NCBI RefSeq assembly: GCF_014334135.1
Contig: NZ_CP060497.1
Span: 5,456,001 to 5,520,000 of the forward strand
Direction: 5' to 3'
DNA from: Olivibacter sp. SDN3
GTDB lineage: Bacteria; Bacteroidota; Bacteroidia; Sphingobacteriales; Sphingobacteriaceae
DNA: 64,000 nt
Position numbers and translations under genes: made by a program. Every line of letters begins with the position of its first letter. Position 1 is the first letter of the stretch. Shown here piece after piece: positions 6,197-25,266 of the stretch. A model generated the notes under the pieces. That model saw only the letters and a list, made by a program, of their open reading frames with translations. It did no database searches and had not been told where the DNA came from.

Positions 6197-7741
6197 TTAT
6201 TGATTCGCATAGCCGGGATTTTGATCGTCTTCGCTGATATCTTCATTTTGTCTAATTTCTTGTAAAGGAATAGGATAATATCGATGGTATGATTGAATAG
6301 TATTTGATTGCTGCGCCCAACGGTTGCGCGCCGGTACGTAGCTCGTCAATGTAGTAGTTCTGTTCAGGTCCATACGCCGCCAACCTTCAAAGCATAGTTC
6401 ACGCATCCGTTCATCCAAGATATTTGTTCGAAACTCGGCCTGAGACATTCCTGCATTCCACTGCGCGCTCGCCGGCAAGGTACCGCCCCATGCTCTTTGC
6501 CGTACTGTAGTATTAACGATCTTGACCGCCTCCGCTGTTTGTCCGAGTTCATTTAACACTTCGGCGTAACATAGCAAGACATCCGCATAGCGTAGGTAAA
6601 ATATATTTTTTCCCGAATTCCAGAAACTGAGCGTACCGTCTGTTCGTGGGTCTTCATACTTTTTCACGTGAGGGTCCAACTCATCGCCTCCCCAACCAGG
6701 TTGCAAAGGCGTGGGTACTCCCCGATAAGTGAAGTCATAGCGGATACTTTCTTCTTTCCGCAAATCTCCTTCTTCCCAAATACCGCCCTCACTGTTATCT
6801 TGATAAGCATAAGACGTAGGCACAAGTAGATCATATCCACCAAAATAGGCATATTGATCTACTAAAGCCACTGCTCTCGACCCCATCTGCCACTGGCATT
6901 GATTGTTATCGGGCACCACATTACTGAATTGAAATTCGTAAAGCGATTCACTGGTATTAGAATGTGCCGGATCCCACAGTTCAGCATAATCAGCCACTAA
7001 ACTGTACGTACCACTGTTGACCACGGCTTCAAAATGTTCCAAAGCCTTCTCATAGCTTCTTACACCAGTCTCTTCTGGCGCATAGAGATACACTTTTCCA
7101 AGTAGCGCCTCTGCCACCCCTTTGGTTGCCCGGCGTTTATCATTTTGGGATATGGGCAAATAAGCTATTGCGTTTTCCAGATCCTGAATGATGTAGGCAT
7201 AAACGGCCTCCTGAGGTTGTCTAGCTGTACCCAGCTCATCAAATCGATCCACATCAATAATTGGCACATCGCCCCAATATTGCACCATCTCAAAGGTTAG
7301 CGCCGCCCTTATAAAACTTGCTTCTCCAAGCAGAAAATTTTTCCGTTCAGGGTCCTGCTCGTTAAACTGCAAGGAGGAGATCACTCTAGCTGCAGCGGCA
7401 ATTACCGGCCACCGACTATCCCATTGCTCAGCTAAGGCATTATTGCTTGGCGATAGGAAGCCGTTATAACGGTCCAGGCCGGCCTGACTGGCGTCTGTCA
7501 ATACCTGATAGGCACCTTGCTGAGCTTCATCTGTACCCAATAAAAAAACAAAGCCTCCTCTATCCTTCCTCGTATTCCGCCAACTTGTATAAAGGCCTAA
7601 CACCAATGGTTCAATATTATCCAGTTCACTGAAAACCTGTTCTTCCGTGAGAGCCGTTTGTGGCTCCTGTTCTAAAAAGTTGCTGCACGAAGAAACGATC
7701 AGCGTCAACAACAAGAGATTATATTTGATGAATGTTTTCAT
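6197..7741 (-). CDS. SusD/RagB-family outer-membrane glycan-binding lipoprotein
   Basis: This 514-residue protein has a lipoprotein signal ending in LIVSSC (Cys about residue 19), so it should be anchored at the cell surface. The opening SNFLEQEPQTALTEEQVFSELDNIEPLVLGLYTSWR and the C-terminal RMRELCFEGWRRMDLNR plus PIPLQEIRQNEDISEDDQNPGY tail are SusD/RagB signatures. Residues in between form the TPR-like helical scaffold of the family. It follows its SusC partner by 35 bp in the same operon and would cap that transporter to capture oligosaccharide. The ligand is unknown, but the neighbouring GH89 and GH36 genes suggest alpha-GlcNAc- or alpha-Gal-containing glycans. Confidence 0.93.
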   Translation of the reverse strand: MKTFIKYNLLLLTLIVSSCSNFLEQEPQTALTEEQVFSELDNIEPLVLGLYTSWRNTRKDRGGFVFLLGTDEAQQGAYQVLTDASQAGLDRYNGFLSPSNNALAEQWDSRWPVIAAAARVISSLQFNEQDPERKNFLLGEASFIRAALTFEMVQYWGDVPIIDVDRFDELGTARQPQEAVYAYIIQDLENAIAYLPISQNDKRRATKGVAEALLGKVYLYAPEETGVRSYEKALEHFEAVVNSGTYSLVADYAELWDPAHSNTSESLYEFQFSNVVPDNNQCQWQMGSRAVALVDQYAYFGGYDLLVPTSYAYQDNSEGGIWEEGDLRKEESIRYDFTYRGVPTPLQPGWGGDELDPHVKKYEDPRTDGTLSFWNSGKNIFYLRYADVLLCYAEVLNELGQTAEAVKIVNTTVRQRAWGGTLPASAQWNAGMSQAEFRTNILDERMRELCFEGWRRMDLNRTTTLTSYVPARNRWAQQSNTIQSYHRYYPIPLQEIRQNEDISEDDQNPGYANQ

Positions 7742-10700: not shown

Positions 10701-10821
10701 TGCTACTATCGGTTACCCTGCCTTTTAACTGTAATGGCTGCTGTGCCCATAACGGTTGCATCCCAAGCAACTCAACAACCAATAAAAAAAACACAAGGAT
10801 ATAAATAATTTTCGGCCTCAT
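7777..10821 (-). CDS. SusC/RagA-family TonB-dependent oligosaccharide transporter
   Basis: The 1014 residues begin with a signal peptide (hydrophobic stretch to about residue 26, WAQQ cleavage region). A carboxypeptidase-regulatory-like beta-sandwich follows (LKGRVTDSSTGETIPGVSI, about 32-110), then a DEIVIVG TonB-box-like segment, a plug with NPDDISSIDVLRDASATALY and GSRGANGVIVITTKKG, and a 22-strand barrel ending in a terminal Phe. It has no STN domain, so FecR/sigma signalling is not expected. It is first in the operon susC-susD, perhaps with GH89. Its promoter carries the paired AraC-type boxes listed separately. Confidence 0.95.
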   Translation of the reverse strand: MRPKIIYILVFFLLVVELLGMQPLWAQQPLQLKGRVTDSSTGETIPGVSITEKGTSNGTSTDENGTFNLSVTAGASIIFTAVGYDSREFTPTEELVNISLSSASNQLDEIVIVGASIKKGDLTGAVTSIDSRKLSELPVTGVNQAMEGRLPGVLIQSNPRPGGNASIRVRGNNSIQYGGNPIYVVDGLIIEDAINTINPDDISSIDVLRDASATALYGSRGANGVIVITTKKGQGEGQVNYNGWYGVQEFSRMVPYMGAQDIFNLRLDAFANQYMDNNPDADREAYIDQLLSDDSEAFADYEFETYRSRHSYNWLDEITRTGNQQNHSLNFSKGSETGSVYLGLNFTDQVGLVKNSSYKRYGGQVNIDQDIKPWLKVGTSTSVTRTEEELLSDGVFNIAANANPLLAINDEMNYLRWANVESTDLYNPLRSLRIDGKNFLNRVMTTNYISLQPIEGLTVRSNLSVDLRNQQTYWYTPKDIGESLRNSTEGTANHRKDETLYWQWDNTVTYDKTINEKHNLSSLLSMSASKQNYNYNQINALGFATDDFSYKYLSGAFLRDRFELGSDFTTYSLLSYIGRVNYNYASKYYATLTARYDGSSRFGPNNKWGLFPSLALAWNIAEEAFFNKGIVNLLKVRAGYGIAGNQNIPDFAFRSLYRPVYSNNSVTYVSDGRLGNEDLRWEKQKQLNIGLDAAILNDRFSFSFDYFHINNDDLLMQRTLSLTSGFSNTIANVGALQNKGLEFVANAAILTEGDLKWNFSANISSYKNRITKLYGDVTAIYNQGGFTGVEIQREGNLFLGESINNIFVYQFDKIAQVEDMERVDGMDLGGRTVRPGDILPLDRDGNGVVDENDRFVVGNKDPKFYGGFSTDLTYKGLSVNAVFSYNYGAKALSYLYEGLMGGSGMYASHDDMNNRWTPENTNTNIPRAFFGGGRYGAGDTDWSVQDASFLRLNALTLSYTFNSSLTQRYKLNNLRVYTTASNLFTITKYKGYDPTGGDDYPMARMFVFGLNLGF

Positions 10822-10875: not shown

Positions 10876-10945
10876 TAAATTTAGGCCTACTATCCTCCTT
10901 TGAAAATGGACTAATATGATAAAAGGATGGATAATCTTATGAATT
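10876..10945 (-). promoter_or_regulatory. Promoter of first susC operon: two 21-bp-spaced boxes and a -7 element
   Basis: On the plus strand the boxes start ATGGACTA at 10906 and ATGGATAA at 10927, exactly 21 bp apart. On the coding (minus) strand each box ends in TCCAT. A TAAATTTA element at 10876-10883, one mismatch from the Bacteroidota -7 consensus TAnnTTTG, lies 23 bp downstream of the proximal box. The same geometry recurs at three other promoters in the window. The direct-repeat spacing of two helical turns is typical of AraC-family dimers. Confidence 0.7.
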
Positions 10946-10981
10946 GCTCCATTCTTTTATCGGCAATGCTATACCAGGATA

Positions 10982-12778
10982 TTACCAGCCCGGATTCTGC
11001 ACAATCAAGCGCCCCCTATCAATCTCGCTTTGCGGTATAGGAAACAAATAGTAGTTGGGATGAAAGACTCTATTTTCAAATACGGTACGTTGATAAAACT
11101 CCGTATCTGTTAAGCTATTCCCTGCCTCAACATTTAAGCCATAAAAAGGCCCCCTATCGGTTTCCATCGAGACTTTCCACCGTCTCGTATCAAAGTAACG
11201 TAGCGTTTCAAAAGCCAGTTCCACCCGTCGTTCCCGTCTGATTTTTTCACGCATTTCTTCTTGTCCCAATCCGGGTTCAATACCAGGAATACCAGCACGC
11301 TCCCTAATCAAGTTCAGATACCTCAAAATATCGGGGTTTCCAGGATCATATTCATTTAATGCCTCTGCATAATTAAGGTATATTTCTCCCAAACGAATCA
11401 TCACATAAGGCCTTCTTATTTCCCTACCTATTCGTGGATTGGCATTCGGATGCACAAACTTACGCACGATATAGCCGGTCTTAGAGTAATTGTACTGTCC
11501 TTCCATTCCATTATTACCGTAACGGTGCATTTCAATTACCCTATCCCCTTCTTCTTTATTAATCCACAATGAACCACTATAAACGATTGAAGCATAAAAT
11601 CGTGGCTCCCTGTTAACAAACATATTGTAAGTTCCCGAGCGTGTATATTGATCGTTTTCTTCAGAAAACCCTGTCTCAATATAGCCAGACCCCTCCTCAT
11701 CAATTGTTTTTCCGTTGGCCATAAAATAAGCATCTACCTGATGCTGCGTAGCGCCCATTGCAGACCATCCTCCCGCAAACCGAGGTGTATTAGCAACATC
11801 CCAGGAGCCATAGTCCCAATTTGGGCGCATAAAGATCTGTTCCACATTAAAGGGTTCTATAAAAGCATTCTGATACGACAGCAACGGGTTTAAAGAACCG
11901 TCTTCATTATACTCTTTATAAAGAGAAAAAGCATTTAAATCAATCACCGCTTTCGCCGCATCTGCGGCTAATCTCCACTTTTCAATATCATATGATTGGT
12001 TATAAAGCACCGTACCATCTTGATTTGCGAAATTGGCATAGTCGGTGTTACCGTTATTCAAAGGGCTGGCAGCATATAATAACAACCTAGCCTTTGCGGC
12101 TAAACACATTGCGCTGGTCGCTCTTCCCATATCAGCACTCGCATTGGCATGTCTTAATGGCAATACACCCGCTGCTTCATCAAGTTCCTGCGCGATATAA
12201 GCAACACAATCGTCATAAGGACTTCTTTCCAGCTGCAATTCGTCCATGGGCAGATCGGGCGGGATGATTTCACGAACAATCACCATTGGTCCATATTGCC
12301 TCAAAACACAGAAATAGAACCATGCTCTTAAAAAGCGTGCTTCGGCTATGTACTGGTTAATCAACTGTTGGCCGTTAGGCAACCGTAGTATCTCTTCATT
12401 CTGGCCTATATGCTCGATGAAATAAGAAGCCGAGCGAATGCCGCGATAATAACCCGACCAGAACTCGGCTAAATTCGAATTAGCATCCCACATACCAATG
12501 TTCATAAAATGCGATGCGTGACCATCCCAATTATAGGTCATATCGCCTTCGTCAGCAGCTCCGATCCAAGGGCTGCCACTTGCCTGGTTTCCTTCCTGCC
12601 TTATATGGGCGTATATATTTGCAAGGTACCTTTCCGACTCGTCACGTCTGTTAAAAACATCTTCAATTGTAATTCTATCGTCAGGTATCTGATCAAAAAA
12701 ATCCTTCTGGCAAGCAGTAAAAATCAAGCATAGCATCATTGCTCCCAGGCTATATATTTTTTTATTAAAAAGTCTCAT
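10982..12778 (-). CDS. SusD/RagB-family outer-membrane glycan-binding lipoprotein
   Basis: This 598-residue lipoprotein has the signal MRLFNKKIYSLGAMMLCLIFTAC with the acylated Cys at about position 23. Family signatures include the N-terminal QIPDDRITIEDVFNRRDESERYLANIYAHIR segment, IRRERRVELAFETLRYFDTRRW, and the tail YYLFPIPQSEIDRGRLIVQNPGW. It is longer than the first SusD in the window. The gene is 11 bp after its SusC partner and almost certainly cotranscribed with it. Presence of the AraC-box promoter in front of the pair links it to the same regulon as the first SusC/SusD. Confidence 0.93.
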   Translation of the reverse strand: MRLFNKKIYSLGAMMLCLIFTACQKDFFDQIPDDRITIEDVFNRRDESERYLANIYAHIRQEGNQASGSPWIGAADEGDMTYNWDGHASHFMNIGMWDANSNLAEFWSGYYRGIRSASYFIEHIGQNEEILRLPNGQQLINQYIAEARFLRAWFYFCVLRQYGPMVIVREIIPPDLPMDELQLERSPYDDCVAYIAQELDEAAGVLPLRHANASADMGRATSAMCLAAKARLLLYAASPLNNGNTDYANFANQDGTVLYNQSYDIEKWRLAADAAKAVIDLNAFSLYKEYNEDGSLNPLLSYQNAFIEPFNVEQIFMRPNWDYGSWDVANTPRFAGGWSAMGATQHQVDAYFMANGKTIDEEGSGYIETGFSEENDQYTRSGTYNMFVNREPRFYASIVYSGSLWINKEEGDRVIEMHRYGNNGMEGQYNYSKTGYIVRKFVHPNANPRIGREIRRPYVMIRLGEIYLNYAEALNEYDPGNPDILRYLNLIRERAGIPGIEPGLGQEEMREKIRRERRVELAFETLRYFDTRRWKVSMETDRGPFYGLNVEAGNSLTDTEFYQRTVFENRVFHPNYYLFPIPQSEIDRGRLIVQNPGW

Positions 12779-12789
12779 CTCTACTTCTA

Positions 12790-15700
12790 TTAAAAGTTTG
12801 CTTGAATTCCTAAATTATATGTTTTTACCTGTGGATATGATATACCGTTTCCGCTTTCAATTTCCACATCCCACAAATCGAATTTACTAAAGGTCAACAG
12901 GTTAAATCCTTGCATAAATATGGTTGCTTTTTTTAATCCTATTCGGTTAATAAAACTGTTATCAATAGTATAGCCAATATCCAAGGTTTTCAGCCTTACA
13001 TAACTCATATCCTGTACCCACCAAGAGCTTGCCCTATAATTCATATTTTCATCTCCGAAAGTTAATCGAGGATATAGCGGGTTAGGCAAGGGATTTTCTT
13101 CCGTCCATCTGTCTTCGATCGCGGTCAAAAGGTTTCCGCTGGACACACCTTGTGTAAAAGGGGTAAAGCCCTGGCCGGAGGTCATGATATCTACGTTTCC
13201 TGCTCCCTGAAAAAAAGCAGCCATAGAGAAGTTCTTGTAATTAAATCCAATGCGTAAACCGTATACCAATTCTGGAATCTGCCCGTATCCAATGGGCGCC
13301 TGATCATTAGCATCGATTACGCCATCACCGTTTAAATCTAAGTATTTAATATCGCCAGGCATGGTATTACCAATTTGCATCGCGTGGCTATCAATTTCGT
13401 CCTGCGACTGAAACAATCCTTCGGCAATATACCCGAACCGTTGGTCGATCCGCTGACCTTTTCGCTCCCGCCAAGGATAGTTCCAAGGTGGTAGGTCATC
13501 ATCGATTACTTCATTACGATTAAACGTAACGGTACCTTGCACGTTCAATGTAAAATCTCTTGAAAGCTGACCGTTATAGGTAAGCGACGCGTCAACACCT
13601 TTATTTTCTGTCTTTCCAAGATTACCATAAGGATTATTACGCAAACCAACGTAAGCCGGTATTGCTGCACGCCTTAGGAAAGAACCTTCTCTTCGTTCAT
13701 GAAAGACGTCAAACTGTAAATTCAAGGCACCACCTAATGTGTTTAGATCAATGCCCACATTGGTTTTTAGTGCCTTCTCCCAAGTGACGTCAACCGCATA
13801 TTCTTCAATATCACGTCCCCAGTACTCGTTGTTATATTGATCACCAAAATGATAACCATCCGTATCTCCTACGGTGCCAATATAAGCGAAACGTCTACCT
13901 CCAATATCTGCGTTTCCAACCACCCCTCTAGAGAACCTTATCTTTCCAAGCGGTATCGCATTTTTTAAAGATTCAAAAAAAGGCTCCTCAGAGAACACCC
14001 ACCCAAGGCCTACTGAGGGAAAGAAACCATAACGTTTGGAGGGCAAAAAGTTCTCGGATCCATTAAACCCAAAATTCAATTCTAAGAGGTACCTGTTGGC
14101 GTAGTCATAAGTCGCACGTCCAGCAATGCCGCGATAGCGATACGGCAGCGAACCAATTAGATCACCTGCTTGACTGTTTATGTAATCGCTCTGATTAAAC
14201 AAAATCATTCCGGTTACATTATGTTTCTCAAATGATCGTACATAATTCACAGCCGCTTCCGTGTAAAAGCGGCGATTGTTTTCCTGCTCTCCTCTTTCAA
14301 AACCCAGGTAAGGATTTCCTACCCTTGTCTGCTCGAATATAAGATTTCCGTCCTCATCGCGTCCAGAAGCATAAAAAGTATCCGGTGTTCGCCGACGTAG
14401 GGCTGCGTTTTGATTGTAATAGTCAAAAGCAAACATGGCGTAAGCCGTTAAGCCCGGCGTAAGAAAACCAAAATCCTGTGTAGCACGTATGTTAGAGTTT
14501 ACGCGACTTCTTGTACGGGTATTGTAACCCGATTGCGTTAACATCAGATAACCATTTCCCCCGCGTAAATCCCCAAAATAGCCATTTGAGTATACCAGTG
14601 GAAAAAGATTGGGCGGGGTGTCCATAGATTTTGAATAGATTTCATTTGTTCCATAACCGGGATAAGTTCCGTCCAAAATAAAACCTTGCACCCCTAAATC
14701 AACCGTTGTGGTACCTGTTGCTTTTAAAGATAAATTGCTGGTAAAGTTATATCGATCAACTCCTATCTTTGAATCAAACTTCTGCATATCATCCCGCTTG
14801 AGTAAACCGACTTCGCTATAATAAGCCCCAGAAACGTAAAATTGTGCACGATCACTCCCTCCGGTCATATTTAAATTCAGCCGTCTGTTTCTACCAGAAT
14901 TATCGAACAGCTCATCGTTCCAATTAACGTCAGGATACAAATCAGGGTCTGATCTATTCTCAGTTTGATAAATAGCATCTTCACTATAAATTGGGTTTCG
15001 GCCACGTGTTGTGTTCGCTTCGTTTGCTAATCGCATGAATTGTGGTGCATTTACTAATTCCGGAATCTTTGTTAGTTGTGTTAATCCTTCATTGTATCCT
15101 ACGGTGATACTGGTAGCCTGCACTTTTCCTTTTCTAGTATTGATAAGTATAACGCCGTTAGCACCTCTCACGCCGTATACCGCAGTAGCGGAAGCATCTT
15201 TCAGGATGGAAAAACTTTCGATATCTTCGGGATCAACGTCATCCATCGGGCGTTCTACCCCATCTACCAGTACCAAGGGATTACTGGACCCCAAACTGGA
15301 GCGGCCCCGGATCCATAAATTGGCATTATCATAACCAGGCTCCCCACTGCGTTGTACGCCCACGATCCCCGACATTCTTCCTGCTAAAACTGTTGTGAGA
15401 TTACGCACGGGTGTTTTTAATTCAGTAGGTCTTACCGTAGACTGCGCGCCAATACTGGAGATTTTCCGTTGTACACCAAACCCCACCACCACCACCTCCT
15501 CCAAACTTCCTTCCTCCGTTTGTAAAGTGATATTTAGTGTGGCAGCGCCATTTACAAAGATCTCTCTAGAGACATAACCCACATAAGAAATCTGAAAAAT
15601 GGCATTTTCAGCAACGTCAATTACGTATCTTCCCTGTTCATTAGTTGTAGTTCCGAGATTCGCCGCGTCTTTCACGCGGATGGAAACTCCGGGAATAGCA

Positions 15701-15834
15701 ACACCGGCACTATCCCGAACCGTCCCCGTAACGGTTATCGTTTCCTGTGCAAAGACGTCTGTTATCAAAAACAAATGACTGATGAAGACAATGAACAGTG
15801 CCTTCATTAGTTTAACAGAACAAGAATTCATCAT
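12790..15834 (-). CDS. SusC/RagA-family TonB-dependent oligosaccharide transporter
   Basis: The 1014-residue protein has a signal peptide (MKALFIVFISHLFLITDVFAQ from Met10, coordinate 15807, is the tidier start). After it come a carboxypeptidase-regulatory-like domain (VTGTVRDSAGVAIPGVSIRV), the TonB-box-like EEVVVVGFG, a plug containing DPEDIESFSILKDASATAVY and GVRGANGVILINTRKGK, and the barrel. No STN domain is present. It differs clearly in sequence from the 7777-10821 transporter despite identical length, so the two pairs are not a recent duplication and may import different fragments of the same glycan. Confidence 0.95.
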   Translation of the reverse strand: MMNSCSVKLMKALFIVFISHLFLITDVFAQETITVTGTVRDSAGVAIPGVSIRVKDAANLGTTTNEQGRYVIDVAENAIFQISYVGYVSREIFVNGAATLNITLQTEEGSLEEVVVVGFGVQRKISSIGAQSTVRPTELKTPVRNLTTVLAGRMSGIVGVQRSGEPGYDNANLWIRGRSSLGSSNPLVLVDGVERPMDDVDPEDIESFSILKDASATAVYGVRGANGVILINTRKGKVQATSITVGYNEGLTQLTKIPELVNAPQFMRLANEANTTRGRNPIYSEDAIYQTENRSDPDLYPDVNWNDELFDNSGRNRRLNLNMTGGSDRAQFYVSGAYYSEVGLLKRDDMQKFDSKIGVDRYNFTSNLSLKATGTTTVDLGVQGFILDGTYPGYGTNEIYSKSMDTPPNLFPLVYSNGYFGDLRGGNGYLMLTQSGYNTRTRSRVNSNIRATQDFGFLTPGLTAYAMFAFDYYNQNAALRRRTPDTFYASGRDEDGNLIFEQTRVGNPYLGFERGEQENNRRFYTEAAVNYVRSFEKHNVTGMILFNQSDYINSQAGDLIGSLPYRYRGIAGRATYDYANRYLLELNFGFNGSENFLPSKRYGFFPSVGLGWVFSEEPFFESLKNAIPLGKIRFSRGVVGNADIGGRRFAYIGTVGDTDGYHFGDQYNNEYWGRDIEEYAVDVTWEKALKTNVGIDLNTLGGALNLQFDVFHERREGSFLRRAAIPAYVGLRNNPYGNLGKTENKGVDASLTYNGQLSRDFTLNVQGTVTFNRNEVIDDDLPPWNYPWRERKGQRIDQRFGYIAEGLFQSQDEIDSHAMQIGNTMPGDIKYLDLNGDGVIDANDQAPIGYGQIPELVYGLRIGFNYKNFSMAAFFQGAGNVDIMTSGQGFTPFTQGVSSGNLLTAIEDRWTEENPLPNPLYPRLTFGDENMNYRASSWWVQDMSYVRLKTLDIGYTIDNSFINRIGLKKATIFMQGFNLLTFSKFDLWDVEIESGNGISYPQVKTYNLGIQANF

Positions 15835-15899
15835 TAAATTTAGGGTTTAAAGGTTATGTAATCTTTTAAGTTTATTTACACGTTATTATTGGTACGGAG

Positions 15900-15970
15900 C
15901 AAAGGTAACGGACAATCCAAAGGGAAAAAATGGATTAAAATTATGAAAAGATGGATTATTCTATGAAATT
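15900..15970 (-). promoter_or_regulatory. Promoter of second susC operon: two 21-bp-spaced boxes and a TACCTTTG -7 element
   Basis: Plus-strand boxes ATGGATTAAAATTATGAAA (15930) and ATGGATTATTCTATGAAA (15951) are 21 bp apart. On the coding strand a perfect TACCTTTG (15907-15900) begins 23 bp after the proximal box. This places the proximal box over the -33 region, as expected for activation by a regulator contacting RNA polymerase. It is the best conserved member of the four-promoter set. Confidence 0.75.
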
Positions 15971-15988
15971 ATATGTAAATAAAAGGCT

Positions 15989-16032
15989 AGTCCCATGAAG
16001 TAATGAGAAATTGTTCATTACTTCATGGGACT
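15989..16032 (-). terminator. Strong 18-bp hairpin after the alpha-galactosidase gene
   Basis: AGTCCCATGAAGTAATGA (15989-16006) and its exact complement (16015-16032) flank an 8-nt loop. It follows the GH36 stop by 22 bp and precedes the susC promoter. The T-run is interrupted (AGCCTTTTATTT on the minus strand), but a terminator insulating the two transcription units is the simplest reading. Confidence 0.7.
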
Positions 16033-16054
16033 TCTATTTATTACAGTCGAAAGA

Positions 16055-18262
16055 CTATCGACTTTCTGATATTTTCAGCACAACGCTGGTTCGATTATTA
16101 TCGAGTTGCGGATTAAAGCCAACTTTCATTAAGAATTCACCGGAATACAGCTCTTGGCTATTAATGGGTGATTGAGATTGCTTATATAAATTGATCTCTT
16201 CTAAGCGATATTGTTTTTGCGGATCTAGACCCTGCAATTTAATCGGTACTATAGACCCTTTATTCTGTCGGTAATTTACCTGATAATTGAACATCACACC
16301 TTCGCTTCTCTCTTCGTTTACATAGCAAATAGAGGCGTAATCCTGCGATCTTGGATCAGCCAATCGATACTGGTCGCCCTGCCAGATGGTAGGTTTCAGC
16401 TCATTATAGTTTTTTATCGCTTCCTGGCAAAACGCTAATTCTTCTTCGGGCAACTCACTTACTACAATGTCGAAGCCAAGTTTACCCATCATCGCCACAT
16501 CTACTTTAAATTTCATGGACTGCTTTCCCCAATCGGTCACATGGTTGGAGCTGGCAATAGCCGGATAGAAGTAAGAGTACTCGTATTGCATAAATATCCG
16601 TTCAAGCGGATCGGTATTGTCGCTCGGCCAGTATTCGGTGAAATATTCGAGCGAGCCATAATCCACCCTTCCGCCTCCACCGGAGCAAAGCATCATGGGT
16701 ACTTTGGGATATTTTTCACGGAATCTTTCCAACACCTTATATAAGCCACGCACATAATCGACATAGAAATTACCCTGTTCTTTTAAATAAGGAGAATGCG
16801 CATTGTAGATCACGGCATTACAATCCCATTTCACATAAGCCAGACCTGGGTTCTTCACAAAAAGATCGTCGAGAGTCTTGAACACGAAATTCTGTACTTC
16901 CGGATTCGATAAATCCAGTACCAACTGGTTTCTGAAATAGTATTCAGGACGTTCTGCTTGCTTCACTACCCAATCCGGATGCTTTTCGTACAATTCGCTC
17001 TTAGGGCTAACCATTTCGGGTTCCACCCAAATACCAAATTTTACTTCGTTATTCGACGCTTCCTTTACCAAAGAGATCAATCCATTAGGCAGCTTTTCTT
17101 TATTTTCTTCCCAATCGCCTAAAGCTGAGGTATCAGCATTGCGCGGATACTTATTACCAAACCAACCATCATCCAATAGAAAAAGATCAACGCCCAACTT
17201 CTTGGTATCTTTTAATAGTGCAAACAATTTGTTCTCGTTAAAATCAAAGTACGTGGCCTCCCAATTGTTCAGCAGTGTCAACCGCTCGCCCTTGCCGTCT
17301 AACAATTTATAATTTCTGGCCCAGTTATGTAAATTTCTACTAGCTTTCCCCATACCTTCATTAGAGAGCGTATACAAGAACTTTGGCGTAATAAAATCTT
17401 CTTGGGCTTTCAGCACATAGGTGCTGGCATAATTATTCATCCCTGCCAGTATGCGTAAATTGTCTTGCGGATCGAGCTCAAAATCGATTTTAAAATTACC
17501 GCTCCACTCCAACCCACCAAACAAAACGGTGCCCTCGTTCTCTTTGGACGGGTGCCCAAAAGAAAGCATGAAGGCCGAGGGTTGAAACAGATTTGTTCGG
17601 GCACCCAGTTTACTGTCGATCGTCTTTATACCATGTGTGAGCTTCGTTTCTTCCGGTTGCATCTCCGTAATCCAATCGCCATGATAATGTCTTAACCAGA
17701 AATCATCCGCCTTCAAACTGAGATTAGCAGAAGCATACTTGGTTAACTCAACAGGGCCTTTCTCCTGATGTTGGATAACCGCCCATTGCTCCATAACATC
17801 TTCTGCCGCGTAAACACGATAATACAACCTTACCTCGAAGGGATATACCGCATCTCTTAAATCGACTTTCAGTTCGGTAATATTTTGGTCTATTTGTTGC
17901 AGTTCGTGCCGTACATATTTTAAATCCAAAGATTGATTGCCATCGGTATGGATCACACTGATGGCGGGTTCCAACAGGTTGCGTGCTCCGGATCCGGTGT
18001 AAGCAGCCGCATACATACCCGTATAATCTCCTGTTTGTTGGTACATACCCTGTAACAATTGATACTCCTGCTTGTCCTGGAGCTTTGGTCCGAGATAAGC
18101 CATATTAAAATCCTTATTCTCTTCCACTTGCAATACCAATGCCTGGTGTTGGGTTTCCAGCACGATCTGCTGTTCTGTTTTCAGTTCCAATTGTTGCTGC
18201 TGCGCATACAGTGACATATACCCGAAAACGACGGTGAATAATAGAAAGAAAGTTTTCTTCAT
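16055..18262 (-). CDS. Secreted alpha-galactosidase (GH36)
   Basis: From the ATG at 18262 a signal peptide is present (MKKTFFLLFTVVFGYMSLYAQ); a frame seven codons longer starts at 18283. Domain order matches GH36: N-terminal beta-sandwich, then barrel motifs LLDDGWFG, GIWVEPEMVSPKSELYEKHP, YVKWDCN, CSGGGGRVDYG and YWPSDNTDPLER. Counting from 18283, Asp487 in KWDCN is the nucleophile and Asp555 in SDNTD the acid/base, by family knowledge. It should release terminal alpha-galactose in the periplasm. It lies 204 bp after galM on the same strand, with an inverted repeat (TGCATGAGC/GCTCATGCA) between them. Confidence 0.94.
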   Translation of the reverse strand: MKKTFFLLFTVVFGYMSLYAQQQQLELKTEQQIVLETQHQALVLQVEENKDFNMAYLGPKLQDKQEYQLLQGMYQQTGDYTGMYAAAYTGSGARNLLEPAISVIHTDGNQSLDLKYVRHELQQIDQNITELKVDLRDAVYPFEVRLYYRVYAAEDVMEQWAVIQHQEKGPVELTKYASANLSLKADDFWLRHYHGDWITEMQPEETKLTHGIKTIDSKLGARTNLFQPSAFMLSFGHPSKENEGTVLFGGLEWSGNFKIDFELDPQDNLRILAGMNNYASTYVLKAQEDFITPKFLYTLSNEGMGKASRNLHNWARNYKLLDGKGERLTLLNNWEATYFDFNENKLFALLKDTKKLGVDLFLLDDGWFGNKYPRNADTSALGDWEENKEKLPNGLISLVKEASNNEVKFGIWVEPEMVSPKSELYEKHPDWVVKQAERPEYYFRNQLVLDLSNPEVQNFVFKTLDDLFVKNPGLAYVKWDCNAVIYNAHSPYLKEQGNFYVDYVRGLYKVLERFREKYPKVPMMLCSGGGGRVDYGSLEYFTEYWPSDNTDPLERIFMQYEYSYFYPAIASSNHVTDWGKQSMKFKVDVAMMGKLGFDIVVSELPEEELAFCQEAIKNYNELKPTIWQGDQYRLADPRSQDYASICYVNEERSEGVMFNYQVNYRQNKGSIVPIKLQGLDPQKQYRLEEINLYKQSQSPINSQELYSGEFLMKVGFNPQLDNNRTSVVLKISESR

Positions 18263-18465
18263 ACTAGGTTGGTAAAATTTCATATGTGCTTTATTATTTT
18301 CATTCGAATAATTTGTTTAATTAAAGGGCAATGAAGCTTGCATGAGCCCTCTGTATCCATACCCTTTTTAAACAGTAGCTCATGCAGGTTCTATTGGTTA
18401 TTCAATTTTCAAGGCGCCTTTATCTATCCTAAAGAAGCCAAATTAATGAAAAAATGGTCGCCTCA

Positions 18466-19422
18466 CTAAAAATTGGTAAAACGGTAACTAATCTGTTGTT
18501 CATATAGTTCGCTCGGGTTTAATACCGTTGAAGGAAAAGCCGAATGATTGGGAGCGTCTGGATAATGCTGTGGTTCCAAGCATATGCCTTGGAAAGGCTT
18601 AAATGCATCATCCAAAAAGTTACCGAAATACACTTGCATTCCTGGTTGTGTTCCGCACACTTCCAGTTGCCGCCCACTCGTTTGCTCCTTTACAGTGGCC
18701 ATCAAACGTAATTCCCTTTGTGGTCCAAAAGCATAATTGGCGGTAACCATTTCTTTCATAACTTCCTTCATCAATGTTGTTCTTCTTAAATCAAATAAGG
18801 TACCTTCTACCGAAGCAATTTCTCCGGTAGGAATGAAATGATCATCTGTAGGTGTATACTGGGCAGCATGAATCTGTAAAAAGTGGTCGTCAATTGTGCC
18901 ACGGGCAGCTAGGTTAAAATAACTATGATTAGAGAGATTGACTATGGTAGCCGCATTAGTGGTAGCTTGGTAGGTAATCCATAATGTGTCATCATCCTTT
19001 AATGTATAGCTAATGTTAACTGAAAGCTCTCCAGGAAAGCCTTCCTCTTCTGACGGACTAACATAATGTAAGACAATATTTTGGTTGCTATGGGCTGCTG
19101 TTGTCCATATTTTGTTACTAAAGCCCGAAAAGCCACCGTGTAAGTGATGATGCCCCTTCGATTCGTTCACAGTCACCTGAATCTGCTGATCATAAAGACT
19201 GAACAGCCCGTTTTTTATGCGATTAGCATATCTTCCAAGAGTGGCACCGATATAATGCTTATCATTGCCATAACTATCGAGATCCGGATAAGACAACACG
19301 ACATTAGAAAAAGAGCCGTTCCTATCGGCAACACTAATGCAGGTGATGACAGCTCCCAAATTACTGATGCCCACCCGCATACCGTTTTTGTTCGACAGGA
19401 GATATTGCTTGACCTTACTCAT
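18466..19422 (-). CDS. galM: Aldose 1-epimerase (galactose mutarotase)
   Basis: This 318-residue cytoplasmic protein interconverts alpha and beta anomers of galactose or glucose ahead of the kinase. GalM hallmarks are present: LGRYANRI, the HHHLHGGFSGF histidine cluster (91-100), NLSNHSYFNL with catalytic His166, and GICLEPQHYPDAPNH with catalytic Glu283. There is no signal peptide, in contrast to periplasmic mutarotases of some PULs. The start overlaps the stop of the DUF5107 gene by 4 bp, indicating translational coupling and a shared pathway step. Confidence 0.94.
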   Translation of the reverse strand: MSKVKQYLLSNKNGMRVGISNLGAVITCISVADRNGSFSNVVLSYPDLDSYGNDKHYIGATLGRYANRIKNGLFSLYDQQIQVTVNESKGHHHLHGGFSGFSNKIWTTAAHSNQNIVLHYVSPSEEEGFPGELSVNISYTLKDDDTLWITYQATTNAATIVNLSNHSYFNLAARGTIDDHFLQIHAAQYTPTDDHFIPTGEIASVEGTLFDLRRTTLMKEVMKEMVTANYAFGPQRELRLMATVKEQTSGRQLEVCGTQPGMQVYFGNFLDDAFKPFQGICLEPQHYPDAPNHSAFPSTVLNPSELYEQQISYRFTNF

Positions 19423-22400
19423 AACCGGATTTCAAGTGAATGCAAAAAAGGAACCATCCGGAGGTGTACAAAAGCGCCTAAGTGACTATTATTAAATGCC
19501 AACACCTCTTTCAACCGATCCGTAGCCTCTTCATATCTGCCTAAACCCAATGCTGCCAATCCGACCATATAATGGCAATGAATCCGATTTTTCCAGGACA
19601 GATCTTGATCGAAAACCAACAGATCCGGCAAAGATACTGCCATATAATCAATATTGATGATGTCATCCATATGAGCGGAACCAAAATCGTTTAACTTTTG
19701 AAAAATTTGCTTGGCATGTACGGGTTCACCGAGCTTTAACCAAGCCAAACCTTGATAGAAGATTTTATCTGGTTGCGGATCATTATAAAAAATTGCCTGT
19801 ACAGGTTCGGTTTCGCCTTGGGTAGCTCGCTCAAAATAATGTTTGGCCTTACCGTTATTCCCTAATCGTTCGTAAGTGAGGCCTAATAGATAATGTACAT
19901 CATTCTCTGGCGCATTCGGCAGTTTCCCTTCTCCCAAATGGTGCGGATAGCTTTCCAAGGTATGAAGCAGATGTAATGCCGTCAAATGATCCGCCTGTGA
20001 TAAGGCCTGCTTAGCCAGTTCCTGCCCAGCCAATAGATATTGACTGGTCACCTTCCCTTCCCCTCCTTCCCAGGGATGGAACTTTCGTCTGGCCAATAAC
20101 TCAAAAGCCTCTGCGAACCTACCTTGGAGATTCAGCAGAGTAATTCTTTCGAGATAAAGATCATCGCGTTCTATCACTAGATGCTGATGCTGATCGAGTA
20201 GCTCGAACCTTTTTTCGGGAGTTACCTGCTGAAGCTTATATAACTGATCCAACTCCATGAGCACCCGTGCATCCGTTTTATCCAAGAGAAAGGCCTCTTC
20301 CAATGTCTGCATCGCTTTGGTAAAATCCTTTTGCTGATTATAGTAGGCCAAAGCCAGATTGCGTTTAACGGTAGGGAAAGCAGGGTCTAAGGATACCGAT
20401 TTCTCCCATGCAGTAATCGCCTGCTGATGTACTCTTTTATCATACCAATAATTCCCCAAATAATAATGAGCTTTCGCATCCGAAGTGCGGAGCTGCACCG
20501 CTTTCTGCAAAGCCAACATATCTTCTATCCGGTTAGGAAAACAATAATCCGATGAGCAGCTGTTCGCTATACTAAAATAGTTGTCCGCCAGTTCCGGCTC
20601 ACCGGCTAAGTCAGCAATATATCCTAAATGATAATAAAGCAAGGGTGTAATATTTTCATCGCCTTTATCCTTTAAAAGGTTCAGCAAAGCCGCAGCTTCC
20701 TGATAACACCCTGCCTGCACATAGTCCAAAGCGTATTCAATACCAGTAGCTATTTTATGTTGAATCAAGGCGAGTAAGTGACTTTTGTTATCATCCGCTC
20801 CTAGCTGATCGGCTAGTTCGAGTTTTATGAGGTATTGCTCAAAGTGAACACCATAGTTAAAAGCATCGTCATGCAATATTTCTTCCGCCAGTAACAAACC
20901 TTCTTGATACTTTCCCAATTTTCGGAGGAGGATTAGCTTTACATGTAAAGCTTGTCCGCTCTGTGTGTTACGCAGTAGGGACGCTTCGATATGCTCCAGT
21001 CCCAAAGCGTAGTGCCCACGTTGTATGTCGATCCTTGCCAACATTAGATAAGCACTGTCTTTCCAGGCGGCACTCCAAACCGCCTTGTAAAAATATTCGT
21101 ACGCTTCATTTATAGTCCCTTTTAATTTCAGCGTAAGTCCCAAATTATACAATACCTCACTATCATAAGGGTTTGTATTACGCATAATCAGGCGTTCCAA
21201 GGCCTTTCTGAAATAGGTTTCTGCTTGACCAAAAACTCCTCTTCTTAACCACCATAGACCCAATGCATTATTATTCCGAATATCGCCATTGTCCCTTTTT
21301 AAGGCTTCTTCATAATACACCGTGGGATCAAAGGTAGCGTGGCGGTATTGCTCTAAATGCAGACCATGTAGGTAAAGTTCCTCTGTACTGGCTATCTCAT
21401 GCGGAGCCGGTGCAGATGTAGCGGGTGCTGGAAGCTCTTTTTCCTGAGATACTTCGGATTGATAATCAATCAATAAACGTCCTTCCTGATCCCATACCGA
21501 CAGCACATACTCATGCACTTGCGTATCATCGATGTTCGTTATTTCATGCAAGAAAACCGATGCTGGAGACAATACCAACTGTTTCTTATAACAAGATACT
21601 TCGCCTTTCTTCAATTCAATCGTTGCATTTTCAAAAATACCCGTAACATAAACTCCTATGGTAAGCCGTTTACCGTTCAGATCCAAATGAATGGCTACAT
21701 CTTTATTTGCATTTTTCACCACCCCGATTTTACTGTAGGGCATAAAATATTGCACGAAAGATTTATTCTCATTAGGTTGCAGCCAAGAGAAGTCCGGTTG
21801 ATTATCGGTATATGCCCCGGTCATCAATTCAATATAGGGTCCATCTTCATCGGTTAAATTACGGTCCCAAGCCTGTCCGAAATCACCGTTTCCCCATGTC
21901 CATTGCTTTTTCCCCGGTACGGTATGATGATTGGCTACATGTAACATGCCCGCCTCGGTATCATGCTCGTAGCCTCCCATAAAATCATACTGCGATCCCA
22001 CCGCCATAAAGGAGGTAGGTACGGGAATATTTTTATAGCGGGAGATATCCGTTCCTGGAGAATAATCCATTTTATAATAAGTACCCTTGGCGATCGGGAA
22101 GGAAGAGACGTCGCGCTTACCATGATCGAATACGGCATGTACGTCGGGCGGAAAAATCGACTGGTAGTGGTCGTTTACCTTAACCGCAGGGTTCGCCCAC
22201 CATAGAAAAGTTTGTGGGAACAAAGTCCTGTTAGAAAGACGTGCGGCTATTTCCAAATAAGCTTTGCCGGGATATAAGGTAAAACCCGTCATTCCTTTCG
22301 TTCGGAACATAATCTCCACTTCATTTATCCATACGGTCTTCGCACCATCAGCTCGTTCTTCTATATGATATTCTACCGGAAGGTAGGTACTTGGACGATG

Positions 22401-22775
22401 GTGTTGCGGCCAGTTAAATTCGATACCTCCCGATATCCACGGGCCCGTCAAGCCCACCAAAGCGGGTTTTATGACCTGATTATAATACACAAAATGTCTT
22501 TTTTTGACTTTATCATAAGCCATCTGTACCCTACCTCCTAACTCGGGTAAAATCATGACTTTGAGAAAACTGTTTTCGATAAATACCGCCTGGTACGACT
22601 TATCTTCTTTCTCATCAAAAATCTTTTCCACTACCGGATGTGGGTAAACTACCCCGCTACTCCCCTGGTACACTCTCTTTTCAAGAAACATTGGATTTTT
22701 CTCCGGTTTTCCAATAGAATAAGTGGGAATGTTGATTGCTTCGGTCCAAATAGTTACTACATCTGATGTCTGCAT
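19419..22775 (-). CDS. DUF5107 and TPR-repeat protein, 1118 residues
   Basis: The N-terminal 450 residues match the DUF5107 type, a mutarotase-like beta-sandwich. Motifs seen are LPELGGRV (77-84), GPWISGGIEFNWPQHHRPS (111-129) and DGPYIELMTGAYTDNQPDFS (311-330). Glu316 and His125/His126 stand out as possible functional residues. From about residue 476 to the end the protein is helical, with repeated TPR-like units (for example ALGLWWLRRGVFGQAETYFRKAL). There is no signal peptide, so it is probably cytoplasmic. It heads the operon with galM and has an AraC-box promoter. The activity is unknown; sugar binding or modification is inferred from fold and context. Confidence 0.85.
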   Translation of the reverse strand: MQTSDVVTIWTEAINIPTYSIGKPEKNPMFLEKRVYQGSSGVVYPHPVVEKIFDEKEDKSYQAVFIENSFLKVMILPELGGRVQMAYDKVKKRHFVYYNQVIKPALVGLTGPWISGGIEFNWPQHHRPSTYLPVEYHIEERADGAKTVWINEVEIMFRTKGMTGFTLYPGKAYLEIAARLSNRTLFPQTFLWWANPAVKVNDHYQSIFPPDVHAVFDHGKRDVSSFPIAKGTYYKMDYSPGTDISRYKNIPVPTSFMAVGSQYDFMGGYEHDTEAGMLHVANHHTVPGKKQWTWGNGDFGQAWDRNLTDEDGPYIELMTGAYTDNQPDFSWLQPNENKSFVQYFMPYSKIGVVKNANKDVAIHLDLNGKRLTIGVYVTGIFENATIELKKGEVSCYKKQLVLSPASVFLHEITNIDDTQVHEYVLSVWDQEGRLLIDYQSEVSQEKELPAPATSAPAPHEIASTEELYLHGLHLEQYRHATFDPTVYYEEALKRDNGDIRNNNALGLWWLRRGVFGQAETYFRKALERLIMRNTNPYDSEVLYNLGLTLKLKGTINEAYEYFYKAVWSAAWKDSAYLMLARIDIQRGHYALGLEHIEASLLRNTQSGQALHVKLILLRKLGKYQEGLLLAEEILHDDAFNYGVHFEQYLIKLELADQLGADDNKSHLLALIQHKIATGIEYALDYVQAGCYQEAAALLNLLKDKGDENITPLLYYHLGYIADLAGEPELADNYFSIANSCSSDYCFPNRIEDMLALQKAVQLRTSDAKAHYYLGNYWYDKRVHQQAITAWEKSVSLDPAFPTVKRNLALAYYNQQKDFTKAMQTLEEAFLLDKTDARVLMELDQLYKLQQVTPEKRFELLDQHQHLVIERDDLYLERITLLNLQGRFAEAFELLARRKFHPWEGGEGKVTSQYLLAGQELAKQALSQADHLTALHLLHTLESYPHHLGEGKLPNAPENDVHYLLGLTYERLGNNGKAKHYFERATQGETEPVQAIFYNDPQPDKIFYQGLAWLKLGEPVHAKQIFQKLNDFGSAHMDDIINIDYMAVSLPDLLVFDQDLSWKNRIHCHYMVGLAALGLGRYEEATDRLKEVLAFNNSHLGAFVHLRMVPFLHSLEIRL

Positions 22776-22797
22776 AAGTCTTTAAAGGTTTACAAGG

Positions 22798-22867
22798 CAA
22801 AAATAGCTTTTGTTCTGTTCGTCAAAATGGAGAAATCATTTTTAACAATGGATTATTTTCTTATATT
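22798..22867 (-). promoter_or_regulatory. Promoter of DUF5107-galM operon: two 21-bp-spaced boxes and a TATTTTTG -7 element
   Basis: In the 110-bp gap between the divergent DUF5107 and AraC genes, plus-strand boxes start ATGGAGAA (22827) and ATGGATTA (22848), 21 bp apart. A perfect TAnnTTTG element, TATTTTTG on the minus strand at 22805-22798, lies 22 bp from the proximal box. The orientation points at DUF5107; the same boxes could also autoregulate araC. Confidence 0.7.
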
Positions 22868-22885
22868 GCCACCAAACTAACCGTT

Positions 22886-23794
22886 ATGATTAAGAAAAAA
22901 GAGGGTTTTGAAGGGGAAAAAGCCATCATTCTTCCTCCAAAGATTATCGAACAATACCAAAGCAGATCCATTACACAGGAGTTTTATATTACAGACATCG
23001 GTTATTATCCAAAGGCACAATACCATTATCGGGATCGGCCTTCGGGTGCACATGAATATATTTTGATTCATTGTATAGAAGGAAAGGGTACCGCGCAAGT
23101 AGATGGACATGAAATTACAATAAGACCAAACGACTTTTTAATTATTCCTGCGGGTAAACAACATTTATATCGGGCAGATCCCGATTATCCCTGGACAATT
23201 TATTGGGTACATTTTCAAGGCTTGCAAGCAAGCAGTATTTGCGAACGGTTATATGATAAAATGCTTTCGCGGAAAAATAGCGTCATGTATAATGAAAAGC
23301 ATCTTTTTTTGTTTGATAAAATTTACAGTACGTTACAACAAGGTTATAGTCGGGATAACATGGAATTTATTTCCTTGACTTTTCCTTATTATTTAAGTGG
23401 TTACCTATTAAATGAACGTTTCAATCACCATTTGGATGAACAGCTAGAAGATCTTACCGAACAGGCTATCCGCTTCCTTAAAAACCGTATTTCGACACCA
23501 ACGACACTCAAAGAAATAGCCGAGCACGTCCACCTATCAGTTTCTCATTTTTCAAGTATTTTTCACAAGAAGACCGGTTATTCGCCTATCGAGTATTTTA
23601 ATCACCTTAAAATTCAGAAGGCCTGCCAATTATTGCAATTTACCAACCAACGAATTTTCGAAATAGCACTCGCTATTGGGATCAATGATCCTTACTATTT
23701 CTCACGTCTTTTCCGGTCTCATATGGGCATATCGCCGAAAAATTATCGTAGTAGGTGGTCTTTATCGCCAAAAAGGAAAACCGATGAATCATAA
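22886..23794 (+). CDS. AraC-family transcriptional regulator of the glycan locus
   Basis: This 302-residue protein has an N-terminal cupin-like sensing domain (about 30-115, with HEYILIHCIEGKG and RPNDFLIIPAGKQHLYRAD). The C-terminal AraC double helix-turn-helix (about 190-293) includes TLKEIAEHVHLSVSHFSSIF and RIFEIALAIGINDPYYFSRL, ending GISPKNYR. The sensing domain suggests a small sugar as inducer. It is divergent from DUF5107-galM and upstream of the MFS gene. It is the obvious candidate to bind the paired boxes found at four promoters in this region, an inference not proven by sequence. Confidence 0.92.
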   Translation: MIKKKEGFEGEKAIILPPKIIEQYQSRSITQEFYITDIGYYPKAQYHYRDRPSGAHEYILIHCIEGKGTAQVDGHEITIRPNDFLIIPAGKQHLYRADPDYPWTIYWVHFQGLQASSICERLYDKMLSRKNSVMYNEKHLFLFDKIYSTLQQGYSRDNMEFISLTFPYYLSGYLLNERFNHHLDEQLEDLTEQAIRFLKNRISTPTTLKEIAEHVHLSVSHFSSIFHKKTGYSPIEYFNHLKIQKACQLLQFTNQRIFEIALAIGINDPYYFSRLFRSHMGISPKNYRSRWSLSPKRKTDES

Positions 23795-23854
23795 GAAAAT
23801 CCATGCTAAACCTGTTTTATTCCATTTTTGAAGATAAAGGATTTACTAGCTTAG
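23789..23854 (+). promoter_or_regulatory. Promoter of the MFS gene: two 21-bp-spaced TCCAT boxes and a -7-like element
   Basis: Coding-strand boxes TCATAAGAAAATCCAT (23789-23804) and AAACCTGTTTTATTCCAT (23808-23825) repeat with a 21-bp period. TAGCTTAG (23847-23854), one mismatch from TAnnTTTG, starts 22 bp after the second box. The first box overlaps the last 6 bp of araC. The orientation relative to the gene is the same as at the three minus-strand promoters. Confidence 0.65.
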
Positions 23855-23881: not shown

Positions 23882-25198
23882 ATGAACAATCCTTATCGTC
23901 ACACCGTGTTAATCAGTTTGGTAGCAGCGCTTGGTGGGTTGCTATTTGGCTTTGACATCGCCATTTTTTCGGGCACCATCCCTTTTATTCAACCCTATTT
24001 TAAGTTAGATGCCCCTGCACTCGGCTGGGTGGCCAGCAGTCTTTACGTCGGCTGCATGCTCGGTGCATTATTTACCGGTTGGATAACCGAACGTATAGGG
24101 AGGAAAAAACCATTGATATGTGCAGCGGTATTATTTGCCTTCTCTTCCATAATGATGGGATTGGCGGAAAGTTCCTCATCGCTTACCCTGTGGCGCATTA
24201 TCGCCGGCATGGGTGTAGGTGGAGCGTCCGTGCTGTCTCCTTTATATATTGCCGAAGTTAGCCCAGCAGCTATGCGGGGCAAAATGGTATCGATCAATCA
24301 GCTTGCCATCGTAATCGGCATCTTACTCGCTTACCTTTCCAATTACTTTCTGGCCCCTGTAACGAACAACTGGCGCTGGATGTTTTCAAGTGGAGCAGCA
24401 CCGGCCATTTTATTCTTTATAGGTGTTTTTCTTATACCCGAAAGCCCCCGCTGGCTTTTAATTAAAGGTTACCAGCAAAAGGGTGAAGAAGTACTTAGGC
24501 GTTTGCTTGCGCCTACTGAGGTCGCCAAAGAACTCTTGTTGATCAGTAGGCATAAACAAAACCCATCCCTGAAGCCGAGTTTCGGCACCCTCCTGCAAAA
24601 GGGAATTTTTCCCTTATTGATGATAGGTATTCTGATTGCTATCTTTCAGCAAATATCTGGAGCGAATGCTGTTTTGTTTTATGCGCCCCTTATTTTTGAA
24701 AGGACAGGGATGAATGTCGATGACCAGCTCTTCCAACAGGTACTGATTGGCGGAATTAATCTATCTTTTACGTTAATAGCGATGCAATTGGTAGATAAGA
24801 TAGGCCGGAAAAAGCTCATGCTCTTCGGAGCCGGAATGATGGCATTGCTACTCGCTTTTATTGCTTATGCTTTTATGAAAGAATTATTTGGGGGATATTT
24901 ACTCAGCTTGCTGGTACTGTCTTTTATCGCTACCTATGCAGCCACTTTAGCGCCGGTAACCTGGGTATTGATTTCCGAAATATTTCCGACAAAAGTGAGA
25001 GAACTTGCCATTTCCGTTTCCTCTACGATGCTATGGGTAGCTTGTTTTAGTCTCACTTATGCTTTTCCCGTAATGATCGATCGCTTTTCTGCCAGTCAAA
25101 CATTTTTATTTTTTGCTGGTATATGTTTAGTTTATTTCTTATTTTTATGTTTCTTTGTGCCTGAGACGAAAGGAAAGAGCTTGGACGAGGAGGCATAA
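23882..25198 (+). CDS. Sugar-porter family MFS transporter
   Basis: The 438-residue inner-membrane protein has 12 predicted hydrophobic segments. Sugar-porter signatures are GGLLFGFDIAIFSG (18-31), GRKKP after TM2, PESPRW (186-191) closing the first half, QQISGANAVLFYAP in TM7, a second GRKK, and the C-terminal PETKGKS. These motifs resemble proton-coupled xylose, arabinose or galactose symporters. It probably imports the monosaccharide released in the periplasm by GH36 or GH89. Its promoter carries the shared AraC-type boxes, which ties it to the two SusC/SusD operons. Confidence 0.92.
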   Translation: MNNPYRHTVLISLVAALGGLLFGFDIAIFSGTIPFIQPYFKLDAPALGWVASSLYVGCMLGALFTGWITERIGRKKPLICAAVLFAFSSIMMGLAESSSSLTLWRIIAGMGVGGASVLSPLYIAEVSPAAMRGKMVSINQLAIVIGILLAYLSNYFLAPVTNNWRWMFSSGAAPAILFFIGVFLIPESPRWLLIKGYQQKGEEVLRRLLAPTEVAKELLLISRHKQNPSLKPSFGTLLQKGIFPLLMIGILIAIFQQISGANAVLFYAPLIFERTGMNVDDQLFQQVLIGGINLSFTLIAMQLVDKIGRKKLMLFGAGMMALLLAFIAYAFMKELFGGYLLSLLVLSFIATYAATLAPVTWVLISEIFPTKVRELAISVSSTMLWVACFSLTYAFPVMIDRFSASQTFLFFAGICLVYFLFLCFFVPETKGKSLDEEA

Positions 25199-25237: not shown

Positions 25238-25266
25238 AAAGGCCAAGCGTTAATGTTTGGCCTTTT
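25238..25266 (+). terminator. Terminator after the MFS gene
   Basis: AAAGGCCAA and TTGGCCTTT form a 9-bp stem with a T6 tail, 40 bp after the MFS stop. The hairpin overlaps the 3' end of the convergent GH95 gene. Confidence 0.8.

Follow-up and report, generated by a model that had tools for sequence, protein, structure and literature searches.

What controls the genes of a glycan locus arranged around a single regulator gene, and how far that control may extend, is the question raised by a stretch of the Olivibacter sp. SDN3 genome (contig NZ_CP060497.1, positions 5,456,001 to 5,520,000), which is 64,000 nucleotides (nt) long and is referred to here, as a whole, as the window. In this locus, a single AraC gene is surrounded by two SusC/SusD pairs and the genes of a GH36 protein, galM, a DUF5107-TPR protein, GH95, GH89 and an MFS transporter, and an initial annotation had described a paired TCCAT box at four promoters of the locus as a candidate regulon of the AraC protein. 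The sequence comparisons presented here indicate that the AraC-family one-component activator encoded at 22886 very probably binds these operators, and activates a galactoside-utilisation regulon in response to a galactose-like sugar.

At the four promoters (P1 to P4 in Table 1), the arrangement TCCAT-N16-TCCAT is oriented toward the gene, and is followed, after 21 or 22 nt, by a -7 element resembling TAnnTTTG. The boxes lie exactly where the initial annotation had placed them, with the 21-bp period and the same orientation relative to the gene, and the -7 elements, which had been given as TAnnTTTG or one mismatch from it, match all six specified bases at two promoters and five of the six at the other two, with gaps from the proximal box of 22, 22, 21, and 21 nt in P1 to P4, respectively. 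All four pairs are intergenic, each aimed at the next gene, and P3 and P4 directly flank the araC gene, one on either side, with P3 being divergent from it. The half-sites are direct repeats of approximately 17 bp with a 21-bp period, the proximal one at the -33 region, as in the operators of the AraC/XylS family. The long consensus that had been proposed for both boxes fits the distal box only, given that the flanks carry 9.7 bits of information at the distal box, across 52 sites, vs 3.8 bits at the proximal box.

The exact string by itself is weak evidence, given its 46 occurrences in the 6.12-Mb genome, in comparison with 28 for the reversed pattern, used as a control. The off-locus rate predicts 0.09 exact pairs in the 13-kb span in which four are observed, and the corresponding Poisson P of 2.5e-6 is to be read as post hoc, because the motif was picked after being seen. 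Pairs with one mismatch are not unusual in the window (9 observed vs 5.5 expected). A general rule of a single TCCAT followed by a -7 element across the home genome was also considered and set aside, as gaps of 21–22 are not clearly enriched, with 18 of the 100 listed places (107 found) falling in two of the 13 gaps.

A better test is provided by a sequence-only profile, built from 26 relatives' sites, with the window and its nearest relative excluded, and run on the whole home genome. This profile places the four window sites at ranks 1 to 4 (expectation values, E, from 1.3e-6 to 8e-4), after which E drops to 0.016 at rank 5 and is at least 0.18 for the remainder. The training sites were chosen by their TCCAT pair, and the test is thus the ranking of the window sites above the other 42 exact pairs of the genome, all of which they outscore, and above the near pairs. 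A genome-wide scan, which had been suggested as a check, selects these four sites as the best in the genome when made with this profile.

Homologues of the AraC protein were recovered at E 1e-40 in 33 of the 150 genomes searched, including the home genome. The relatives contain 41 of these matches, and the neighbourhoods of 20 of them, with 38–89% identity, were examined. A pair with no more than one mismatch lies upstream of a gene in 14 of these 20 neighbourhoods, and the sister species (G003) retains all four window sites, as the conservation anticipated in the initial annotation would have it. In a fifteenth neighbourhood (G042b), TCTAT-N16-TCTAT occurs twice, with TAGATTTG following after 22 nt, the -7 element and the gap being assigned by eye. 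When the window and G003 are excluded, 25 of the 28 sites of the relatives have their best -7 match 21 or 22 nt after the proximal box, and 23 of the 28 have a -7 of 5/6 or better there. In 304 upstream regions from 19 relative neighbourhoods, 11 exact sense pairs have a spacing of 21, and only three are found at all the other spacings between 6 and 44. Seven antisense pairs at a spacing of 21 in the same neighbourhoods are probably due to divergent intergenic regions having been counted twice, once from each side. Changes in the recognition helices, considered as a cause of the neighbourhoods that lack sites, present no clear pattern by eye, and are not claimed.

The dependence of the sites on the regulator was evaluated in 20 chosen relatives, ten with the homologue and ten with no match at 1e-40. 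In all ten homologue-bearing relatives the best profile matches range from E 2e-7 to 5e-5, values that, at the locus, are partly a product of construction, as nine of the ten (all but G003) supplied training sites. Five of the ten relatives without the homologue have no match at E 0.02, while the other five have six weak matches (E 0.0016–0.017), none of which has a -7 of 5/6 or better, and two of which reach 4/6. The assignment of the four promoters to this AraC protein is thus supported by the genome scan, the conservation, and the link between site and regulator in the 20 relatives.

Matches away from the locus were also compared. Of 11 stretches of the relatives that surround such matches, nine have, no more than 400 bp from an open reading frame (ORF), a site whose -7 reaches at least 4/6, and the other two, one of them close to a contig end, lack such a site. 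The nine off-locus targets encode a GH95, three SusC-like proteins, an MFS sugar transporter, a GH30, a GH43, a PSD1/PSCyt protein, and a Mala_s_1-like protein. The GH95 of G001 and the MFS transporter of G035 are targets followed off the locus: the former (57% identical, on another contig) is preceded by an exact pair with TACTTTTG at +22 (E 6e-7), and a pair with TAATTTAG at +21 accompanies the latter, which is 65% identical to that of the window and also lies on another contig. In G011, the exact pair before the PSD1/PSCyt protein (L177:7529-10300, minus strand), which has a CBM6 match, is accompanied by a 6/6 -7.

The spacing rule was also observed in a wider sample of 80 of the at least 586 loci encoding AraC-like relatives (Chitinophaga, Pedobacter, Mucilaginibacter, Spirosoma, Dyadobacter, Phocaeicola, and other genera), 77 of which do not overlap the training set. 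At a spacing of 21, these 77 loci contain 83 TCYAT pairs, and 52 of them, spread over 39 loci, are followed at +21/22 by a -7 that matches at least 5/6 (45 at a gap of 22 and seven at a gap of 21), while the other 37 spacings, between 8 and 45, yield 634 pairs, only 13 of which have such a -7, with no more than three at any one spacing. The loci are related to one another, so that these counts do not represent independent events. In 28 of the 77 loci, a site with a -7 points away from the araC-like gene at a distance of no more than 400 bp.

The regulator itself has the N-terminal cupin ligand-binding domain and the C-terminal DNA-binding domain of two helix-turn-helix (HTH) motifs that are characteristic of the AraC/XylS family, and its predicted model has a mean predicted local distance difference test (pLDDT) score of 87.5. 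Its DNA-binding domain matches that of E. coli AraC (2k9s, 9e-10), with HTH_AraC in two stretches. Taken alone, the ligand domain fits BgaR with a template modelling (TM) score that reaches 0.72 by target length. The scores for AraC bound to arabinose or D-fucose are 0.54–0.58, and these two proteins, BgaR and AraC, the first a lactose sensor, represent the best ligand-domain fits by TM-score, with 18–19% identity between BgaR and the window protein over the aligned part. Residues T24, R38, H80, Y82, and W95 of E. coli AraC, which we take to be the sugar-contacting residues of the pocket, align to T36, R51, H93, Y95, and W107 of the window protein. A galactose-like ligand is favoured because of the ligand-domain fits, the kept pocket residues, the GH36, galM, and the sugar transporter, and it would most likely be galactose or another sugar that shares its ring configuration and is set free from galactosides.

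In the mechanism that we infer, which covers the binding, the dimer, the activation, the ligand, the order of occupancy, and the transcription starts, an AraC dimer would bind the two direct half-sites (consensus approximately ATCATAAnATAATCCAT), whose 21-bp period would correspond to two helical turns. The strong distal half-site would anchor the dimer, whereas the proximal half-site, reduced to about TCYATT and abutting the -33 region, would be occupied only when the sugar is bound. Once filled, the proximal site would allow the protein to contact the RNA polymerase, with the -7 element beginning after 21–22 bp. The predicted regulon would include the two SusC/SusD importers, DUF5107-galM, perhaps with GH36, the MFS transporter, the GH95, and, probably, a distant GH97.

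The last two of these targets are additions to the original set of promoters, of which all four are real, with a fifth, that of the GH95 gene (27642-27708), having been overlooked. The P5 site scores 15.0 bits in the profile (genome rank 9, E 0.21), which is weak by itself. It is kept in G003, with TAATTTTG at +21, and this retention, together with the site of the G001 gene, outweighs its overlap with a reading frame. This frame, which ends at 27675 and resembles, by eye, a short-chain dehydrogenase, contains the P5 distal box in its final codons, and pieces of similar appearance are found in two reading frames of 27675-28111 (minus strand).

The GH97 gene found elsewhere in the genome (G000:C1:3184557-3186604, plus strand, locus L182) is probably a sixth member of the regulon. 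It is the rank 5 match (E 0.016), with an exact pair and TACATTAG at +22, and its ORF starts 82 bp from the proximal box. This pair is the only one with a 5/6 -7 at 21/22 among the first 30 exact genome pairs listed. Of four relatives of the genus, G003, G001, and G002 have no match to the GH97 at 1e-100, and there is a 36% match in G004, but the locus there contains no such site with a 5/6 -7.

A further match, TCTAT-N16-TCCAT-N22-TATTTTTG (G000:C1:2385290-2385350, plus strand, locus L124), with a 6/6 -7 and E 0.43, precedes a DUF417 gene. In G004, this site has a TCCAA/TCCAT pair with a period of 21 and a 6/6 -7, TAAATTTG, at +22, and in G001 there is only the proximal box with a -7, by eye. 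The match was left out of the regulon because the DUF417 gene directly follows another AraC-type ORF, identified by Pfam, although the pair kept in G004 makes its membership possible. The same TCCAT box may serve a second AraC clade, and it may be guessed that the box is common to several AraC clades, with the upstream part providing the specificity.

A number of observations weigh against the reading of these sites as a galactoside regulon of this AraC protein. The DUF417 pair, beside a second AraC gene, means that TCCAT pairs alone do not name their regulator, and the PSD1/PSCyt (G011) and Mala_s_1-like (G042) targets have no obvious sugar role. Six of the 20 neighbourhoods lack a pair with no more than one mismatch upstream of a gene (one has TCTAT pairs instead), and 38 of the 77 wider loci lack a TCYAT pair with a -7. 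By E-value, the top fold matches of the regulator are Rns, CsvR, and ToxT, which are non-sugar sensors, at a TM of 0.3–0.4 over both domains. The ligand is also uncertain, given that GH95 and GH36 members have other substrates, and GH95 and GH89 leave room for other ligands. The full two-site profile, in turn, fails to recover the araBAD operator of E. coli at E 1.

One alternative is that the sites bind a different AraC-type protein, either another one-component regulator or a hybrid two-component system, with the adjacent gene being a bystander. The genome contains nine further AraC-type genes at E 1e-10, one AraC gene has the similar pair before DUF417, and the hybrid two-component systems of Bacteroides also have tandem sites averaging 21 bp, an AraC-type DNA-binding domain, and control of SusC/SusD loci, as here, according to PMC3878776, which predicts 16 motifs for the systems with an AraC-type output. 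These systems are sensor-kinase chimeras with periplasmic sensors, whereas the window protein, of 302 aa, has neither a kinase nor a receiver domain, with only the cupin and AraC domains in Pfam. The strong sites track the homologue of this AraC in the 20 genomes compared, adjoin its relatives across the phylum, and flank its gene directly at P3 and P4, while the closest of its paralogues in the genome is only 29% identical over residues 50–289, and the 1.5 kb around the nine paralogue matches contain a single exact TCYAT pair, with no -7. A different binding protein is, in this case, quite improbable.

A role as mainly a repressor, in which binding at the -33 region would block the promoters until the sugar releases the protein, is very improbable. 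The proximal box does abut the -33 region, and a possible -7 of araC (TATATTGC, 24 nt before the ATG, 4/6) is reached by the P3 distal half-site, so that repression of araC is possible. Nevertheless, a 21-bp tandem ending 21–22 bp before the -7 corresponds to the activating I1-I2 arrangement of araBAD, and the 28 sites have no conserved TTTG -33 beyond the Ts that follow the box, as expected of an activator-dependent promoter. A recurrence of AT-rich TCCAT words through chance or base composition, which the genome-wide string count, the one-mismatch count in the window, and the behaviour of single boxes might suggest, has a negligible probability, and was rejected on the basis of the spacing tests in other genomes and the ranking by their profile, together with the position of the -7.

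The activating arrangement invites a closer comparison with the E. coli araBAD promoter, TCCAT-N16-ACCTG-N21-TACTGT, which the geometry of the window matches within one base. The two operators share the distal TCCAT, the 21-bp period, and the gap to the -10, which is 21 in E. coli and 21/22 here, and a strong distal half-site accompanied by a degenerate proximal one at the -33 region corresponds to the layout of araBAD. The E. coli I1 is described as conserved and I2 as variable (PMC2893085), with I2 overlapping the -35 (PMC11434276). Both proteins are one-component cupin and AraC regulators encoded by a divergent gene. They differ in sequence (24% identity overall), in the proximal site, which is ACCTG in E. 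coli, in the promoter core, a -10 TACTGT there and TAnnTTTG here, and in their targets, which include SusC/SusD loci in the window, unlike araBAD. The Bacteroidota half-site matrix places the E. coli I1 as the top 17-mer of the E. coli locus (11.3 vs 6.0 for the next), with most of this score coming from TCCAT, given that the 12-base upstream part scores just 1.7, a value that 1.5% of random 12-mers and 3.4% of the shuffled versions of this part attain.

It is tentatively suggested, as a possibility that is rather doubtful at present, that the operator grammar (a strong TAnn-N7-TCCAT-like anchor, the 21-bp period, a weak proximal TCYAT, and 21–22 bp to the core) is an old code kept in both the proteobacterial AraC and the Bacteroidota despite their different core promoters. 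If this is true, one shared rule would make many solo-AraC regulons readable from sequence across the Bacteroidota. The searches of the open-access literature, outside which most of the subscription papers lie, yielded no published operator for this one-component AraC subfamily of Bacteroidota glycan loci. An operator code specific enough to predict targets distant from their regulator would provide a direct way of assigning orphan glycan genes to a regulator, and would allow a clean test of AraC activation with the Bacteroidota primary sigma factor at a near-araBAD geometry.

Table 1. Operators, -7 elements (matches to the six specified bases of TAnnTTTG, and gap in nt from the proximal box), and genes of the locus, in window positions.
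Feature	Position	Strand	Details
P1 operator	10906..10943	-	distal 10927-10931, proximal 10906-10910; before SusC/SusD pair 1; genome rank 2, E 3.3e-5
P1 -7 element TAAATTTA	10876-10883	-	5/6, gap 22
P2 operator	15930..15967	-	distal 15951-15955, proximal 15930-15934; before SusC/SusD pair 2; rank 3, E 1e-4
P2 -7 element TACCTTTG	15900-15907	-	6/6, gap 22
P3 operator	22827..22864	-	distal 22848-22852, proximal 22827-22831; before DUF5107-galM; rank 1, E 1.3e-6
P3 -7 element TATTTTTG	22798-22805	-	6/6, gap 21
P4 operator	23788..23825	+	distal 23800-23804, proximal 23821-23825; before MFS sugar transporter; rank 4, E 8e-4
P4 -7 element TAGCTTAG	23847-23854	+	5/6, gap 21
P5 operator	27671..27708	-	distal TCCAT 27692-27696, proximal ACTAT 27671-27675; before GH95
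P5 -7 element TAATTTTG	27642-27649	-	6/6, gap 21
araC-like regulator gene, 302 aa	22886..23794	+	Pfam AraC_binding 2e-13, HTH_AraC 2e-23, HTH_18 1e-19
SusC-like TonB receptor 1 (P1 target)	7777..10821	-	Plug + CarbopepD_reg_2
SusD-like 1 (downstream of P1)	6197..7741	-	SusD_RagB
SusC-like TonB receptor 2 (P2 target)	12790..15834	-	Plug
SusD-like 2 (downstream of P2)	10982..12778	-	SusD_RagB
DUF5107-TPR protein (P3 target)	19419..22775	-	DUF5107 1.6e-50
galM, aldose 1-epimerase (downstream of P3)	18466..19422	-	Aldose_epim 3e-83
GH36 alpha-galactosidase-like	16055..18283	-	Melibiase 2e-102
MFS sugar transporter (P4 target)	23882..25198	+	Sugar_tr 6.5e-113
GH95 glycoside hydrolase (P5 target)	25250..27598	-	Glyco_hydro_95_cat 6.5e-164
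GH89 alpha-N-acetylglucosaminidase-like gene, locus edge	3531-5831	-	

The remaining genes of the locus differ in their relationship to the paired box. The upstream region of the GH36 gene contains no pair with up to one mismatch, and this gene may follow P3 by co-transcription, while no paired box was seen upstream of the GH89 gene. The predicted model of the DUF5107 protein is poor (mean pLDDT 66, with most of residues 80–354 below 50), and was not used.

The autoregulation of araC is also possible. The sequence TA[TA]ATTG[CG] is found 24–28 nt before the araC start in the window (22862-22869, plus strand), G003, and G004, with TATCTTGC in G001, and this element reaches the outer margin of the distal half-site of P3. 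In seven relatives, the ORF that follows the site is 1116–1167 aa in length, and all seven align to the DUF5107-TPR protein, with 58–85% identity.

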